Positions 4,490-30,209 of a DNA stretch of 64,000 nucleotides are shown in pieces; position 1 is the first letter of the stretch, and the number at the start of each line of letters is the position of its first letter. The notes below the pieces were generated by a model that saw nothing but the letters and a program-made list of their open reading frames with translations, did not search any database and was not told where the DNA came from. The position numbers were made by a program, and so were the translations under genes. The DNA is taken from assembly GCF_004135935.1 (NCBI RefSeq), contig NZ_CP025086.1, positions 1,674,001-1,738,000 of the forward strand. The letters run 5' to 3'. The stretch is from Methylovirgula ligni (lineage in GTDB: Bacteria > Pseudomonadota > Alphaproteobacteria > Rhizobiales > Beijerinckiaceae).

Positions 4490-4588
4490 GGCATGGATGA
4501 AGCGGCAAAATTCGATCCGGAGAACTCCGTTTCGCTGCGGCCGGCGTGGGCCCGATCTTGTCTTGTTTCTTACAGAGGAAACCGACGC

Positions 4589-4604
4589 TGTCGTGTTCGA
4601 CACA
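4589..4604. promoter_or_regulatory. NifA upstream activator sequence (TGT-N10-ACA)
   Basis: TGTCGTGTTCGACACA is a perfect TGT-N10-ACA NifA site with extra inner symmetry (TGTCG/CGACA). It lies 68 bases upstream of the nifH -24 element, the usual enhancer range. Confidence 0.85.
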
Positions 4605-4672
4605 GCTCCTGAAATTTCCAAACAAATTGAAATGTGAATTTAAAAACAGTTACTTACAAGTTCATTTCACGC

Positions 4673-4688
4673 TGGCACACCCGTTGCA
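4673..4688 (+). promoter_or_regulatory. Sigma-54 promoter of nifHDK
   Basis: TGGCAC-ACCCG-TTGCA matches the -24/-12 consensus fully. It is followed by a leader of roughly 145 bases to the nifH ATG at 4845. Confidence 0.95.
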
Positions 4689-5811: not shown

Positions 5812-7314
5812 ATGAGCCTAGGAAAAACTGAAACCGTTGCCGAGATCAAGGCTCGCAACAAGGAATTGATACAAGAGGTTCTGTCCGTTTATCCGGAGAA
5901 GACCGCCAAGCGCCGCGCCAAGCACCTGAACGTGCAGGAGGGCGGCAAAGCCGATTGCGGCGTCAAGTCCAATCTTAAGTCCATCCCTGGCGTCATGACG
6001 ATCCGCGGCTGCGCTTATGCCGGCTCAAAGGGTGTCGTGTGGGGGCCGATCAAGGACATGATCCACATCAGCCACGGCCCGGTGGGCTGCGGCCAATATT
6101 CCTGGGCTGCACGCCGCAATTATTACATCGGCACGACCGGCATCGACACGTTCGTGACCATGCAGTTCACGTCGGACTTTCAGGAAAAAGACATCGTCTT
6201 CGGGGGCGACAAGAAACTTACCAAGCTGATCGACGAAATCCAGGAGCTTTTCCCGCTAAACCACGGCATCTCGGTTCAGTCGGAATGTCCGATCGGGCTC
6301 ATCGGCGACGACATCGAGGCGGTCTCGAAAGTCAAATCGAAAGAATATGGCGGCAAGACGATCGTGCCCGTTCGCTGCGAAGGTTTCCGCGGCGTTTCGC
6401 AGTCGCTCGGCCATCACATCGCCAACGACGCGATCCGCGATTGGGTCTTCGACAAGCTCGATCCGAACGCGCCGCCGAAGTTCGAATCGACGCCTTACGA
6501 CGTCGCGATTATCGGCGATTACAACATTGGCGGCGATGCCTGGTCGTCACGCATCCTCCTCGAGGAAATGGGCCTGCGGGTCATCGCGCAATGGTCCGGC
6601 GACGGCACTCTGGCAGAGCTGGAGGCGACGCCGAAGGCGAAGCTCAACGTGCTGCACTGCTACCGCTCGATGAACTACATTTCGCGTCACATGGAAGAGA
6701 AGTACGGCATTCCGTGGTGCGAATATAACTTCTTCGGCCCCTCCAAGATCGCCGAATCGCTGCGCAAGATCGCCAGCTTCTTCGACGACAAGATCAAGGA
6801 AGGCGCCGAGCGCGTCATCGCCAAATATCAGGCGCTGATGGATGCGGTCATCGCCAAATATCGTCCGCGCCTCGAAGGCAAGACGGTCATGCTCTTCGTC
6901 GGCGGTCTGCGCCCGCGCCATGTGATCGGCGCTTACGAGGACCTCGGCATGGAGGTTGTCGGCACGGGCTATGAGTTCGGCCACAACGACGATTATCAGC
7001 GCACCGCCCAGCATTACGTGAAGGATGGCACGCTGATCTATGACGATGTGACGGGCTACGAGTTCGAGAAGTTCGTCGAGAAGATCCAGCCGGATCTGGT
7101 CGGCTCGGGCATCAAGGAAAAGTACGTCTTCCAGAAGATGGGCGTGCCGTTCCGGCAGATGCACTCCTGGGATTATTCCGGCCCCTATCACGGCTATGAC
7201 GGGTTCGCCATTTTCGCGCGTGACATGGATATGGCGATCAATGCGCCGATCTGGAAAATGGCCAAGGCGCCTTGGAAGGTCCAGCCGCGCCAGACGTTGA
7301 TCGCTGCCGAATAA
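5812..7314 (+). CDS. nifD: NifD, nitrogenase MoFe protein alpha subunit
   Basis: 500 aa. It forms the alpha2beta2 MoFe protein with NifK and holds the FeMo-cofactor where N2 is reduced. The P-cluster ligands are Cys67 (RGCAYAGS), Cys93 ([11 protein letters not shown]) and Cys159 ([11 protein letters not shown]). The FeMo-co ligands are Cys283 ([10 protein letters not shown]) and His451 ([13 protein letters not shown]). These pairs identify the molybdenum enzyme rather than the V or Fe-only form. The N-terminal ERK-like extension is of normal length. The ATG follows GAACGAGGTGTCAAA. It lies between two intergenic hairpins, after nifH (82 bases) and before nifK (68 bases). Confidence 0.99.
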
Positions 7315-15758: not shown

Positions 15759-16217
15759 TCAGGGGTTGGCGGGCATCGGAAAGCCGACGCGCGGATGCGT
15801 GTCGTAATATTCCGGCCGTTCCGGCCAACTGCCGTCCGGCAGGATCTGGAAGCGGACGATTTTCACCGGCGCCCCCGGGGAAATCGAAACTTCAGCGAAT
15901 TTGATTTCGCGTGCCCCGGGGCCGGCGGAAAAATCGGCGACGACTGTGCCATCGGCCTTCTTCGCGCGTGCGAACCCCGGCGTTCCATCATGCGCGCCAA
16001 GGACGGAAGCCTCAACGAAAACAGGAGTTTCAAGTCCATCTTGCGGTTCGGAGAACGCTGGCGAAGCGAAGGTGAAGGTCGCCAGTACGCCACTGCGATC
16101 AACGGCGTGGTCGGCCGTCAACGGCCGCGCCACCGAATAAATCGTCAAAGTGCCGCCGTCGAGGGCCGCTTTGATCTCGTCGAGGCTCTGGCCAGCAAAA
16201 GCCGATGAAACATTCAT
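15759..16217 (-). CDS. Unknown protein, first gene of the minus-strand block
   Basis: 152 aa from ATG 16215-16217, with GGAGA upstream. No family is recognised. After a short helix (FAGQSLDEIKAALDGG) the protein is mostly beta: GTLTIYSVARPLTADHAVDR, LATFTFASPAFSE, FVEASVLGAHDG, and a C-terminal WPERPEYYDTHPRVGFPM. There are no cysteines or membrane segments. It lies 62 bases upstream of the sulfurtransferase and diverges from the Rieske gene, so it probably belongs to the same accessory operon. Confidence 0.6.
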   Translation of the reverse strand: MNVSSAFAGQSLDEIKAALDGGTLTIYSVARPLTADHAVDRSGVLATFTFASPAFSEPQDGLETPVFVEASVLGAHDGTPGFARAKKADGTVVADFSAGPGAREIKFAEVSISPGAPVKIVRFQILPDGSWPERPEYYDTHPRVGFPMPANP

Positions 16218-16386
16218 AGCAATCTCCGCGAATGACTTTTCCTGCAAACTTCAAGTTTCGTGCCATTCCCCCACGGGAAGAAGCGCGAATTTTGCAAGGA
16301 CGCATTGGCGTCTGAATTTGAAATTCGGCGGCGGCAGCTTCGCGGGAGTGAAAGCGAGACAGCGGACAAGAAGTGAGTGTTCCCGA

Positions 16387-16821
16387 ATGAGCGCAACGCA
16401 GGCCGATCCCGACATTGCTTATGCGATCTGCAGCTTCAACGACATCCCAAGCCAGAAGGCGCGGAGCTTCCACCTTCTCCGCGTCGATGAGGATGGCGCG
16501 ACAAAGCCGTTTCACATCGTCGTCGTGCGATGGGGGCGGCAAGTGTTCGGCTATGTCAATCGGTGCCCGCACGACGGGGTCAACCTCGATTGGGAGCCCA
16601 ATCAGTTTTTCGATCCGAACGGAATCAGACTGATGTGCGGCAAGCACGGCGCTCTGTTCGAACTTGGCACCGGGGCGTGTCTGGAAGGGCCATGCAAGGG
16701 ACGGGCACTGATGCCCGTCGCCCTGCAAGTTCTCGATAACGATATTTGCGTGACCGGCGTGACACTGGCTGAAGAGGAAGACGAACCCCGCCTCTGCGAT
16801 TCGGACGAAAACGAGACCTGA
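16387..16821 (+). CDS. Rieske-type [2Fe-2S] protein
   Basis: 144 aa. A Rieske domain is clear: Cys60 and His62 (NRCPHDGVNLDW) and Cys84 and His87 (LMCGKHGALFE) form the C-x-H ... C-x2-H cluster site, and the loop ending GPCKGRALMPVAL is typical of small Rieske ferredoxins. The C-terminal tail is very acidic (LAEEEDEPRLCDSDENET). It has no membrane anchor or catalytic domain, so it is likely a soluble electron carrier. It stands alone on the plus strand between two minus-strand genes, converging with the unknown gene at 16827-17417. Its role in nitrogen fixation is inferred only from position. Confidence 0.85.
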   Translation: MSATQADPDIAYAICSFNDIPSQKARSFHLLRVDEDGATKPFHIVVVRWGRQVFGYVNRCPHDGVNLDWEPNQFFDPNGIRLMCGKHGALFELGTGACLEGPCKGRALMPVALQVLDNDICVTGVTLAEEEDEPRLCDSDENET

Positions 16822-16826
16822 ACTCC

Positions 16827-17417
16827 TCAGACGGGACGGTTCTCGTTGCGATTCTTGATCGGTCCCGCCTTGGCGAGAACATCCTCGAAGGTCGTCGGTG
16901 TGAAATCGAACTTATATTCCGCGAGCTCGTCAAGGACGTAATCGAGCTTGCCGGCGGTATCGAGCTTCCTGATGTCATTCTTGTCGATGCCGAGAAGATC
17001 GATTGTCTCCTTCCAGACGGTGGATTCGTCGCAGGGAAGGACGGCAAACGGAATGCTCCTGTAGGTCATCTGATATTTCGCCAGGATATCGATGTTGTTG
17101 GCGTAGATCAGATAGACGCCATCCGGGCTCAGCAGATTGCCGAGCACGTCCACGACATTTTCCAGATAAGCAAAAGAATGGATGTAGCCGACAAGAACCG
17201 GGATGGTCGGCTCACCTTGCTGCGCGATCGTGAGTATGCCCTCGAGAGAGAAGTCGGGCGGCCGCTTTTCGTCGGCAAGTTGTTCCTGCCATTTCAGGGC
17301 GATATCGCCGCGGAAGCCAAAGCGGTTCGGCTTCGTCGTCTCGCCTTTCAATATGGCGTTCAATAACCGCCCTTCTTTTTCCAATGGCCCGAGAGCGGTC
17401 TCATTAATTGTCGTCAA
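16827..17417 (-). CDS. Unknown protein divergent from the AAA+ gene
   Basis: About 196 aa if begun at the TTG at 17415-17417, which has GGGAG upstream; the frame is open to 17555 but that region holds promoter-like elements. No family is recognised. It has hydrophobic beta/alpha segments (IPVLVGYIHSFAYLENVVDV, DGVYLIYANNIDILAKYQMT) without a clear signal or membrane helix, then an acidic helical C-terminus (ETIDLLGIDKNDIRKLDTAG). It diverges from the AAA+ gene across paired -24/-12 elements. A likely idea is a client or adaptor of the AAA+ protein, but this is inference. Confidence 0.6.
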   Translation of the reverse strand: MTTINETALGPLEKEGRLLNAILKGETTKPNRFGFRGDIALKWQEQLADEKRPPDFSLEGILTIAQQGEPTIPVLVGYIHSFAYLENVVDVLGNLLSPDGVYLIYANNIDILAKYQMTYRSIPFAVLPCDESTVWKETIDLLGIDKNDIRKLDTAGKLDYVLDELAEYKFDFTPTTFEDVLAKAGPIKNRNENRPV

Positions 17418-17470
17418 GGAAATGTCTCCCAGAGTGGCGTCACCGGCCAGAATGGCCTGGCCTCGTCTTA

Positions 17471-17486
17471 TGCAAATGATCTGCCG
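17471..17486 (-). promoter_or_regulatory. Candidate sigma-54 promoter for the unknown gene at 16827
   Basis: On the minus strand it reads CGGCAG-ATCAT-TTGCA, with a perfect -12, correct GG-N10-GC spacing and two mismatches in the -24 block. It lies about 55 bases before the TTG start at 17417. It is almost back-to-back with the plus-strand element at 17493-17508. Confidence 0.45.
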
Positions 17487-17492
17487 CGCCTG

Positions 17493-17508
17493 TGGCGCGA
17501 ATGATGCT
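17493..17508 (+). promoter_or_regulatory. Candidate sigma-54 promoter for the AAA+ gene
   Basis: TGGCGC-GAATG-ATGCT has the right GG-N10-GC spacing and one mismatch in each block. It lies 36 bases before the AAA+ ATG at 17545. No perfect TGT-N10-ACA site was found between the two genes. Confidence 0.45.
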
Positions 17509-17544
17509 AGCCGGTCGCACCGAGGTAGCTCGCGAGCAAAGCAA

Positions 17545-19278
17545 ATGAGTATCAAACTTCAGATCGAGCGACCCTATATCGAGGCCATGATCGCCAGTTT
17601 TCCGGCGCTGGCGCCTTACGCCGAGCAATTGCGTTTCAGCGACAAGGTTGAACTTTCCTTCGACCAGCTCGAATCCAATGCCCGCGCTTTTCTGCATGAC
17701 CTCTATGTGAAGGCAGGCCCCGCGATGGAGGCGCGTGCGGCGCATATTGCGACGCTGCGGCGCGCCTTCGACGACACGGCGGTTCGCTTCGGCGAAGGGG
17801 ATCTCGAATCCGTTCTTCCGGTGATCGTGCGCTATCTCGCGAGCGATGCGATCCGTGGCTGGATGTTCACCGCGACGGCGGCGGGGCGTTCCTTGCCTTA
17901 TGTCGTCAGCCGTCTCGATTACACGCCGCCGGCGAACGACGAGGCGGGCCGCGTCTTCGTCGAGCTGAAGGCCAATGCCAAGGGCGCGATCACCTCCACG
18001 ACGATCCGGATTTCGGCCGGCGATGTCGTCGGCAAGACGGTGGCGGAGCTTTTCCTGGCGAAGGGATTTCTCAAGGAAACGCCGGAGCTTATCACCGCCT
18101 ATGACGCTGCGGTCGAACGCTATTTTGCCTGGCGGGGAAAATATGGCGACCAGTTCTCCGGCAGGGGGACTGGCTTTTTCGCCGAGGACCCCAATTCCTC
18201 GCATCGGGACATCGACTGGTCGCGCAAGGACCTCATCGTGCTCTCATCGAGCGGCGGGGCGGCGCGGCTCGTCAATGACGAAAGCATTCTCACCACCCGT
18301 GCGCTGACGCTCGAACTCACCGGCGACGTTCTTGGCCAATATTTGCGCAAGGCCGCCAAGAGCAATCTCTACAACGCCGAGGAGGAAGTGGAGGAATCCC
18401 AGGCCGCGATCGCCAAGGGCGTGTTCAGCAAGATTCCGATCCACGCCTATATTCTGATGTTTCACCTCGAACTGCATCATCATGTCTGGGTGCATGTCGA
18501 CGACATTACGCCTTATGTCTATCAGCCGGACCTCAAGACCAAGCTTGTTTTGCCCGAGGAGCAGACAGACCTCATCGACATATTGACCGCGGAGATGGAC
18601 GTGCTGATGGACGATATCGTCGCCGGCAAGTCCGGCGGAACGACCGTGCTCTGCGCCGGGCCGCCCGGCGTTGGCAAGACTTTGACAGCGGAAGTCTATG
18701 CCGAGATCATCAAACGGCCGCTCTATCGCGTCCATTCCGGCCAGCTTGGCCTCAGTGTCGCGGCGATGGAAAACGCGCTGAAGGACGCACTGACCCGGGC
18801 GCAGCGCTGGGGCGCGGTGATGCTGATCGACGAGGCGGATGTCTATATCAAGCGGCGGGACAACGACATCACCATGAACGCCGTCGTCGGCGTTTTTCTC
18901 CGCGTGCTCGAATATTTCAACGGGCTGCTCTTCCTGACGACGAACCGGATCGACGATATTGATGAGGCGATCATCTCGCGCTGTATCGCACTCATCAAAT
19001 TCTATCCGCCGGACGCCGAAGCGCGCGGCAAGATCTGGCGTGTGATGAGCGACCAATTCGCGCTCAGCGTCGCACCGAAGCTGATCGGCGAGCTGGTGGA
19101 GCTTTTTCCCGCGGCGAGCGGGCGCGATATCAAAGGCTTGGCCAAGCTCGTGGCGAAATATTGCCATCATCGCAAAGTCCCGCCCGACCTTGCCGTCTTC
19201 AAGCGCTGCGCGATCTTCCGTGGTCTCGACCACGGCGAGCACGAAATCGCAGCGGTCGAGCCGCTCGGCGCGGAATAG
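17545..19278 (+). CDS. AAA+ ATPase in the nif region
   Basis: 577 aa. The C-terminal part is a clear AAA+ module: Walker A GPPGVGKT at residues 372-379, Walker B VMLIDEADV with Asp429 and Glu430, a sensor-like FLTTNR, and an ISRC box after it. The first 330 residues are a large domain that I do not recognise; it ends with FHLELHHHVWVHVDDITPYV just before the ATPase part. There is no HTH, protease or membrane segment. AAA+ proteins of this build often remodel or activate a partner (compare CbbX or NorQ types), and a function in nitrogenase maturation or protection is possible. The start ATG lies just downstream of a -24/-12-like element. Confidence 0.85.
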   Translation: MSIKLQIERPYIEAMIASFPALAPYAEQLRFSDKVELSFDQLESNARAFLHDLYVKAGPAMEARAAHIATLRRAFDDTAVRFGEGDLESVLPVIVRYLASDAIRGWMFTATAAGRSLPYVVSRLDYTPPANDEAGRVFVELKANAKGAITSTTIRISAGDVVGKTVAELFLAKGFLKETPELITAYDAAVERYFAWRGKYGDQFSGRGTGFFAEDPNSSHRDIDWSRKDLIVLSSSGGAARLVNDESILTTRALTLELTGDVLGQYLRKAAKSNLYNAEEEVEESQAAIAKGVFSKIPIHAYILMFHLELHHHVWVHVDDITPYVYQPDLKTKLVLPEEQTDLIDILTAEMDVLMDDIVAGKSGGTTVLCAGPPGVGKTLTAEVYAEIIKRPLYRVHSGQLGLSVAAMENALKDALTRAQRWGAVMLIDEADVYIKRRDNDITMNAVVGVFLRVLEYFNGLLFLTTNRIDDIDEAIISRCIALIKFYPPDAEARGKIWRVMSDQFALSVAPKLIGELVELFPAASGRDIKGLAKLVAKYCHHRKVPPDLAVFKRCAIFRGLDHGEHEIAAVEPLGAE

Positions 19279-19355: not shown

Positions 19356-19371
19356 TGTCGGAAACCCGACA
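19356..19371. promoter_or_regulatory. NifA upstream activator sequence
   Basis: TGTCGGAAACCCGACA is a perfect TGT-N10-ACA with extra inner symmetry (TGTCGG/CCCGACA), 60 bases upstream of the -24 element at 19432. Confidence 0.85.
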
Positions 19372-28892: not shown

Positions 28893-29111
28893 ATGAAAGT
28901 GATGATCCGCCGTTCTCCGGAGGCCGGACTGTCGATTTATGTGCCGAAGAAGGATTTGGAGGAGCCGATCGTCGAGACGCAATATGAATCGCTCTGGGGT
29001 GGATGGATCCGTATTGCCAACGGCTGGATTCTCGATTTGCCGGAGATGGCGGCCGAGACGCAACTCCCGATTACTGTCAATGCGCGAAAGCGCGGCGACG
29101 AGGAGGCGTAA
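28893..29111 (+). CDS. nifT: NifT/FixU small nif protein
   Basis: 72 aa. It matches the NifT/FixU family almost throughout: MKVMIRRSPEAGLSIYVPKK, DLEEPIV, WGGWIRIANGWILDLP and LPITVNARKR. The family is conserved in nif clusters but its function is unknown; mutants have mild or no phenotypes in the species where I recall tests. The SIR2-like gene begins 2 bases after its stop. Confidence 0.93.
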   Translation: MKVMIRRSPEAGLSIYVPKKDLEEPIVETQYESLWGGWIRIANGWILDLPEMAAETQLPITVNARKRGDEEA

Positions 29112-29113
29112 CC

Positions 29114-29980
29114 ATGAATGCACCGATACCGCCGCTCGATATTTTGAGACTCGCGGATGCTGAAGCGGTGCTCGCCAATATTGCGAGCCAATTGCGAATT
29201 GGCCGCGTCATTCCCTATCTCGGGCCGAAGCTCACCGCGCTTTCGGCGCCTAGCGTACCAACGAGTTATGAGGCGCTGGCGGAATTCCTTGGAACCAAGG
29301 TCGCTTTGCCGAAGCGCGCGAAGGGCAATCCCTGGGCGTCGGCGCAACATATCGAGAGCACCAGACATCGTGCGACGGTGACAGCCCTGTTGCGCGAAGC
29401 GTTCGCGGCGCCGGTGGAGCCGGGGCCGCTGCATCGCTATCTTGCCGCGCTCGATCTGCCGATGATCGTCGATAGTTGGTACGACGGCGCCATGCGCACG
29501 GCCCTGGCGCGCGCGACGAATTGGGGCGAGGTGCAAGGCATTACCCGCGCGGGCATCGGCGAAGATCGCTGGTATCGCTTTTACGATGCGAACGGCGTCG
29601 AGACCGACAAGGCCGGCGCCGAGCGGTGGACGACGCTGCTTTATAAGCCGCATGGCGGCATTGCGCCGGCCGGAAATTTCCTCATCACGGACGCCGATTA
29701 TGTCGAAGTGCTGACGGAGATCGATATTCAAACGCCGATTCCGGACATCGTCAGGGATCGGCGGACAGAACGCAGCTTCTTCTTCATTGGATGCCGCTTC
29801 CACGATCAACTGCTGCGTATCTACGCGCGGCAGATCATCAAGCGTTCGTCGGGCCCGCATTACGCCGTCGTCGAGCCGGAGACGCTGACCAAGAATGAGC
29901 ACCGCTTCCTCGCCAGCGAAGAGATCATTCCGATCGCGCTGCCATTGCCCCGCGCGATCGAGGTGTTGACGTCGGCATAG
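29114..29980 (+). CDS. SIR2-like domain protein, NAD-site motifs altered
   Basis: 288 aa from ATG 29114. It looks like a distant SIR2 (SIR2_2-type) protein: LRIGRVIPYLGPKL (residues 28-40) sits where sirtuins have the GAGxS loop, LPMIVDSWYD where they have the TxNYD motif, and YKPHGGI with His180 where they have the catalytic HG. The glycine loop and the Asn are not conserved, so NAD cleavage is uncertain. No cysteines, signal or membrane segment stand out. It starts 2 bases after nifT under a NifA-dependent promoter. SIR2-like proteins next to nifT occur in other alphaproteobacterial nif clusters as I recall; the role is unknown. Confidence 0.7.
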   Translation: MNAPIPPLDILRLADAEAVLANIASQLRIGRVIPYLGPKLTALSAPSVPTSYEALAEFLGTKVALPKRAKGNPWASAQHIESTRHRATVTALLREAFAAPVEPGPLHRYLAALDLPMIVDSWYDGAMRTALARATNWGEVQGITRAGIGEDRWYRFYDANGVETDKAGAERWTTLLYKPHGGIAPAGNFLITDADYVEVLTEIDIQTPIPDIVRDRRTERSFFFIGCRFHDQLLRIYARQIIKRSSGPHYAVVEPETLTKNEHRFLASEEIIPIALPLPRAIEVLTSA

Positions 29981-30099: not shown

Positions 30100-30115
30100 T
30101 GTAATGTTTCTAACA
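30100..30115. promoter_or_regulatory. NifA upstream activator sequence
   Basis: TGTAATGTTTCTAACA is a TGT-N10-ACA site 94 bases upstream of the nifB -24 element. Confidence 0.8.
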
Positions 30116-30209
30116 TAGCGTTGATGTCGCATCGCCATGTCGTCAAGGCGACACCGTGCGCCTGCGCGATAAGCTATTGGTTTAAATACGAAATCTGAAT
30201 TGAATTTCA

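Follow-up and report, generated by a model that had tools for sequence, protein, structure and literature searches.

The window analysed here, a stretch of 64,000 nucleotides of the Methylovirgula ligni genome, is a nif region and carries on its plus strand, at 17545..19278, the gene of an AAA+ ATPase of 577 amino acids (aa), which is the main subject of this work. The protein is made of an N-terminal part (residues 1-330) and an AAA+ domain (residues ~366-562), within which Pfam places PF00004 AAA at residues 368-484 with an E-value of 9e-18. The Walker A motif (GPPGVGKT, residues 372-379, 18658..18681, plus strand) is invariant at all positions but residue 374 in the 51-row alignment described below, and the Walker B motif (VMLIDEAD, residues 425-432, 18817..18840, plus strand) was assigned from the sequence and the same alignment. 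For the first 330 residues, no Pfam family passed its cut-off and the single sub-threshold match was Sigma70_r1_2, with 14 of 22 bits. Divergent from the ATPase gene, on the minus strand at 16827..17417, lies the gene of a 196-aa protein with a TTG start, which has no Pfam match at E<=1 and one NCBIfam match far under its cut-off (15.7 of 550 bits). A first-pass annotation, made from the letters and their open reading frames (ORFs), had described a AAA+ protein with both Walker motifs and an unrecognised N-terminal part, divergent from a protein of about 196 aa of no recognised family, and the ORF and Pfam analyses confirmed both descriptions. Around the two genes, profile models identify NifQ, a Rieske-type protein, an IscA-like protein, a NifU-like C-terminal domain, NifW, NifA and NifB, and the match of the nifD model, once its genome coordinates are converted, puts NifD at window positions 5866-7275.

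The ATPase travels with nif genes in Pseudomonadota, and in many relatives its gene is preceded by a predicted sigma-54 promoter of the NifA-activated type or has nif genes close by. Its distribution was followed in three genome samples: an order sample of 297 genomes, which includes that of the window, the order of Methylomonas sp. LW13 (251 genomes; Methylococcales) and a phylum sample of 398 genomes. In the Methylomonas order, 95 genomes carry the ATPase and 139 have a NifD-model match at E<=1e-20. Every one of the 95 carriers is among these 139, and the ATPase was found in 0 of the 112 genomes without such a match (Fisher value of 3.6e-35, relatedness uncorrected). Each of these carriers has one ATPase match, which is just 35% identical in G835 and partial in G928, G930 and G936, and NifD is over its curated cut-off in 92 of the 95, the three below being G316, G924 and G926. 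The phylum sample gave five ATPase orthologues, four of them in genomes with NifD over cut-off; the fifth genome, G405, has a NifE-type match only, and its ATPase copy is split over two frames, while the copy of G412 has one stop within the matched range. Three further matches in this sample, of 48-54% identity, cover the C-terminal half only and come from genomes without a NifD match. The order sample holds full-length orthologues in 3 of 297 genomes, the window genome among them, and all three have a full-length match to PF00142 (NifH/BchL family), which for G165 and G027 is the nif evidence, not NifD.

A scan of contigs returned 137 relatives of the ATPase, and the analysis used the best 80 of these 137, which are 60-78% identical and come from alpha-, beta- and gammaproteobacteria. 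Nif genes lie within the fetched stretch at 27 of the best 80 loci, a count made with criteria that exclude nifA, nifS and nifV matches and on stretches many of which are short. Genome-wide, 50 loci were checked (1 of the 27 and 49 others), with a NifD-model match for 48 of 50 and a match over the curated cut-off for 40 of 50. Among the 30 loci outside this check, 26 have nif genes in their stretch, and four Methylomonas loci were covered by neither approach. The link between the ATPase and nif genes, which the first-pass annotation had proposed to examine through co-occurrence, is therefore real (95 of 95 versus 0 of 112 genomes; 48 of 50 loci).

The wider family of the ATPase carries generic annotations: members encoded by plasmids, nif-less genomes and jumbo phages resemble it in length, architecture and AAA+ signatures (LG after SG, DEAD/DECD/DEGD, TNR, RC and RDIK) and are annotated 'ATP-binding protein', 'AAA family ATPase' or 'ATP-dependent protease'. 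Plasmids yield many of them (300 records, of which one exceeds 60% identity), with 33-42% identity in the 29 rows below the best, among the matches listed. The jumbo Bacillus phages AR9, PBS1 and Goe21 (H41-H46) encode homologues of ~35% identity over 93% of the length, annotated ATP-dependent protease, AAA family ATPase or hypothetical protein, and 16 viral contigs carry homologues at 31-38% identity. These relatives differ from the ATPase of the window by lying outside the nif branch and by the lack of a nif gene in five annotated contexts. In a maximum-likelihood tree, 54 rows of nif type, a label given by origin and similarity rather than proved for each row (the genome of L091, for one, has no NifD match), are separated by a 100/100 branch from nine homologues of plasmids and nif-less genomes, and the window protein groups with L072 inside the 54. 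The nine outside homologues, which have 32-41% overall identity, resemble the nif clade at 44-58% in the C-terminal half and at 19-25% in the N-terminal part. A single origin of the nif clade is likely from these sequences, in a tree that is unrooted and has some long outside branches. Inside the clade, an alignment of 51 rows was built from 48 of 74 loci, the window protein and one sequence each from G165 and G027 (L082, L086, L088, L111, L125 and L143 were excluded from the pool for stops or truncation); the window protein is 57-76% identical to the other 50 rows, and the AAA+ core is near-invariant across all of them. The abundance of the wider family on plasmids, its nif-less contexts and its members in AR9, PBS1 and the viral contigs would suit a passenger gene, an AAA+ gene of plasmid or phage type which became fixed on mobile nif islands and has no role in nitrogen fixation. 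We regard this explanation as improbable, since the ATPase gene can sit far from nifD (in the Methylomonas genome G346 at 2.76 Mb, with nifD at 4.44 Mb) and yet is absent from every genome without a NifD match in that order, its core is near-invariant, and in relatives it is preceded by NifA promoters.

For these promoters, the full arrangement was defined by two elements, a -24/-12 promoter lying between -90 and -35 and, 45-120 bases farther upstream, an exact TGT-N10-ACA site. It was found in 20 of 82 ATPase upstream regions, whereas 0 of 1640 shuffled sequences had it and, on the same contigs, 1 of 1537 places chosen at random; considered separately, the promoter is in place in 32 of the 82 regions and an exact NifA site is present in 23. 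The test took 82 of 83 regions (L099 has no upstream region), and its thresholds were chosen after a first look at the data, on related rows and not blind. Control of the ATPase gene by NifA and sigma-54 is well supported in that part of the relatives which has the full arrangement. In the window itself, the two -24/-12 matches reported by the first-pass annotation between the divergent genes were recovered at their coordinates and on their strands, six bases apart: CGGCAGATCATTTGCA on the minus strand (17471-17486), which departs from TGGCACGNNNNTTGCW by 3 mismatches and lies 69 bases upstream of the 196-aa gene, and TGGCGCGAATGATGCT on the plus strand (17493-17508), with 2 mismatches to the same consensus and 52 bases before the ATPase start. 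By count alone these elements are not beyond chance, the window having 121 bare matches with up to 3 mismatches versus 106 +/- 11 expected. Their position and conservation help the case: the score of the plus element was reached by 0 of 50 shuffles of the 250-base upstream region and that of the minus element by 3 of 50, the plus element at -52 falls inside the range of the ATPase relatives, and the minus element, as CGGCA-N5-TTTGCA, recurs at -66 to -76 upstream of 8 of 21 partner genes, the window counted in and three of the eight (L063-L065) being of one genus. The ATPase gene of the window thus has a -24/-12 element only, with no NifA site in reach; between 17250 and 17750 there is a single one-mismatch NifA site, at 17281. 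Elsewhere in the window, exact TGT-N10-ACA sites occur three times in 4559-4648 and twice in 30100-30153, where they precede one-mismatch -24/-12 elements at 4673 (upstream of nifH) and 30210 (upstream of nifB). The nifH and nifB upstream regions therefore have predicted NifA-type promoters of the sort that is missing from the ATPase region.

The genes found within 7 kb of the ATPase were counted at 80 loci, and these cluster counts are approximate because the ORF caller also reports antisense ORFs. Genes of glutathione S-transferases (GST) are the commonest neighbours (28 of 80), followed by those of SagB-like nitroreductases (18 of 80), of iron-sulphur (Fe-S) CCG proteins, adjoining or near the ATPase (16 of 80), and of bacterial globins (13 of 80). 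The gene which abuts the ATPase upstream encodes the Fe-S CCG protein in Methylomonas and relatives and the SagB-like nitroreductase in Methylocystis and Methylosinus. The plasmid of Methylococcus sp. EFPC2 (NZ_CP070492.1, 89,615 bp; L158, L159) carries an ATPase 73% identical to the window protein, after nifV, nifW, ferredoxin-like genes, grxD and a BolA gene, in that order, and its content includes nifHDK, nifENX, nifB, nifA, nifL, an isc operon, rnf-type genes, lon, clpP and clpX. As an observation in its own right, it looks like a largely self-contained nitrogen-fixation plasmid. These surroundings bear on the possibility that the ATPase is a proteostasis factor, which would pull nitrogenase or Fe-S subunits damaged by oxygen or redox stress out for repair or degradation instead of assisting assembly. 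Such a role is in line with the GST-like, nitroreductase and globin neighbours, with the protease genes lon, clpP and clpX on the EFPC2 plasmid and with the physiology of many named carriers, which are aerobic or microaerobic (methanotrophs, Ferrovum, Beijerinckia). We consider it rather unlikely, because neither Pfam nor NCBIfam finds a protease domain in the ATPase and because the protein has no canonical threading pore loop.

The last point comes from comparison with solved proteins. The AAA+ core retains Walker A, Walker B, a sensor 1, the arginine of an SRC motif and, where sensor 2 is expected, an RDIK motif. By profile, the nearest solved AAA+ domains are those of the classic AAA unfoldases (VCP/Cdc48, Rix7, PAN and 26S Rpt), the best match being the archaeal VCP-like 5vc7 (E 1.5e-12). 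Unlike these unfoldases, the ATPase has one AAA+ domain, an N-terminal domain that differs in sequence, SRC in the position of the arginine finger and an alignment without an aromatic pore loop. The archaeal VCP segment LSKWVGESE aligns with LGLxVAxME, which puts the pore-loop KWVG opposite L-x-V-A; by sequence, there is no aromatic residue in SGQLGLSVAAMENALKDAL and none at the place of the threading pore loop 1. Because of this absence, local remodelling of a client would be likelier than its full unfolding. The structure model of the ATPase is poor in the AAA+ domain, with residues 343-487 under a predicted local distance difference test score (pLDDT) of 50, and AAA+ proteins took up the result lists of the fold searches, which were uninformative on the N-terminal part.

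Taken together, these data suggest that the ATPase is probably an uncharacterised nitrogenase helper. With moderate confidence, we propose that it is a member of a nif-dedicated AAA+ clade which is made together with nitrogenase and remodels a nif client at the expense of ATP. In this scheme the ATPase would be produced when nitrogenase is produced, its conserved N-terminal domain would hold the client, and the ring would remodel this client by ATP hydrolysis rather than thread it; the client would most likely be a nitrogenase component or a protein of Fe-S or cofactor assembly. The first-pass annotation had proposed an uncharacterised remodelling pair for nitrogenase maturation, protection or repair: the nitrogenase context stands, through co-occurrence and NifA promoters, remodelling itself is what we infer, and the pair was abandoned, as detailed below. 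More tentative, and in our opinion doubtful, is a fuller version in which a NifA-controlled AAA+ motor edits the conformation of a nitrogenase or cofactor-assembly protein through ATP, as a counterpart of Rubisco activase; it would have been recruited a single time, out of an AAA+ family of plasmid or phage type, and retained by some diazotrophs, mainly aerobic ones. If the proposed role were confirmed, an ATP-driven motor would join the nitrogenase accessory proteins. It might account in part for the ability of some aerobic diazotrophs to maintain a working nitrogenase and would be a candidate part for the engineering of nitrogen fixation. The carriers include named isolates, methanotrophs for example.

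Several observations weigh against a dedicated nitrogenase helper. The Fisher value overstates independence because the genomes are related. The ATPase is missing from 44 of the 139 NifD-positive genomes of the Methylomonas order and from 37 of the 41 NifD genomes of the phylum sample (4 of 41 have it) and, because most NifD genomes lack it, it is an accessory and dispensable protein. Eight of the 48 genome-wide matches are below the curated cut-off, with NifD pieces in five and a NifE-type match only in three, and at that E-value the nifD model also gives a match in 3 of 14 control genomes. Two carriers, G306 (L091, a metagenome-assembled genome) and G307 (L092, Methylosinus sporium DSM 17706), gave no NifD-model match. 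The full promoter and NifA-site arrangement is lacking in 62 of the 82 upstream regions, and in the window no exact TGT-N10-ACA site is near either element, the nearest being at 19356. Finally, a single conserved neighbour of the ATPase was looked for and none was found among the 80 loci, so that the context does not name the client. The case of L092 could reflect a loss of nif genes, an assembly gap or a true exception.

The first-pass annotation had also placed the ATPase beside the CbbX and NorQ types. CbbX, a Rubisco activase, and NorQ-MoxR proteins are small AAA+ proteins serving one metabolic enzyme system, and their likeness to the ATPase is in idea only. Kinship with them turned out to be a matter of analogy: no CbbX model is among the 20 NCBIfam matches at E<=0.1, and for MoxR/NorQ, AAA_5 gave 16.3 bits for a cut-off of 22 and AAA_3 was not listed. 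A VWA partner of the MoxR/NorQ kind was not found by Pfam in the 196-aa protein and 18 relatives, the other neighbours having been partly scanned. The anti-phage ATPase IetA (spelled IteA in NCBIfam) is the best PADLOC match, over the AAA+ region only (E 6.5e-14); this identity was rejected too, with 43.4 bits for an NCBIfam cut-off of 510 and only weak matches to the AAA+ core.

In the part of the PubMed Central (PMC) literature that could be consulted, a collection which omits most subscription papers, the ATPase gene was not found under any matchable name. PMC3916325 reports 8 genes with both RpoN and NifA sites, among them azo3791 of Azoarcus sp. BH72, which is located outside the nif cluster and annotated 'conserved hypothetical ATPase'; its identity with the window ATPase is a lead only. 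In passages of other articles, the AAA+ mention is a reference title (PMC7341956), the AAA family ATPase is one grouped with nifH (PMC8461304), and nothing on the ATPase gene was found (PMC2607301, PMC13430161).

The protein encoded divergently in the window belongs to a nif-linked family of its own, with a conserved C-terminal tail NRNENRPV; the majority of its homologues start with M-T at the position of the TTG start. It is present in 13 of 297 genomes of the order sample, and the 12 other carriers all have a nifD-model match, 11 over cut-off and one (G212) below, in agreement with the co-occurrence with nif genes suggested at first pass. Neither the 196-aa protein nor its 18 aligned relatives (from an alignment of 17 of 21 places, the window protein and the paralogue L035) have a Pfam match. 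The structure model is good (pLDDT 91.6), and no clear relative appeared in fold comparison (Foldseek best E 0.024, best Z 3.5, best PDB sequence match E 0.19). At 8 of the 21 places mapped, the 196-aa gene has a Rieske-type gene within 100 bases, and at several others it stands beside nifH; in the window, the Rieske-type neighbour is the gene of a [2Fe-2S] protein at 16150..16821 on the plus strand, convergent with the 196-aa gene and with an actual start probably further in. On plasmids of root-nodule bacteria, homologues are found within nif regions under the annotation 'hypothetical protein'. Since the 196-aa protein is nif-linked mostly without the ATPase, it is a separate nif accessory, recurring beside a Rieske-type gene.

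That the ATPase acts on or with this protein is suggested by their divergent genes in the window, by the presence of both genes on the EFPC2 nif plasmid and by a partner homologue of some kind in 29 of 35 ATPase genomes, a figure in favour of a looser link. We nevertheless judge such a pair highly improbable. The 21 distant ones among these 29 homologues have E-values of 1e-24 to 1e-34, and the ATPase carriers G165 and G027 have no partner homologue at E<=0.001. Conversely, 12 of the 13 carriers of the 196-aa protein in the order sample have no full-length ATPase orthologue, and its recurrent neighbour is the Rieske-type gene instead. Outside the window, the divergent arrangement was not encountered: none of 8 places with both genes is divergent without intervening sequence, the two being separated by 739 bases with a 164-aa ORF within at L072 and by 1.4 to 6.9 kb at the other places. 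A fixed or dedicated remodelling pair, as the first-pass annotation would have it, was thus rejected, because the carriers barely overlap in the order sample (13 versus 3 of 297 genomes, with the window genome alone holding both) and no such divergent pair was seen outside the window.

Two minor observations were made in passing. The window genome (G000) holds a second copy of the 196-aa protein, 35% identical and outside the window (L035:1498-2037, 1081796-1082311), which is flanked by thiC-like and transaldolase-like genes, named from their translations. In the window, a SIR2_2-domain protein (PF13289) is encoded at 29003-29980, between nifA and nifB; SIR2_2-like proteins were seen again in other nif stretches, and the EFPC2 plasmid, too, has a SIR2 family gene within its nif region.

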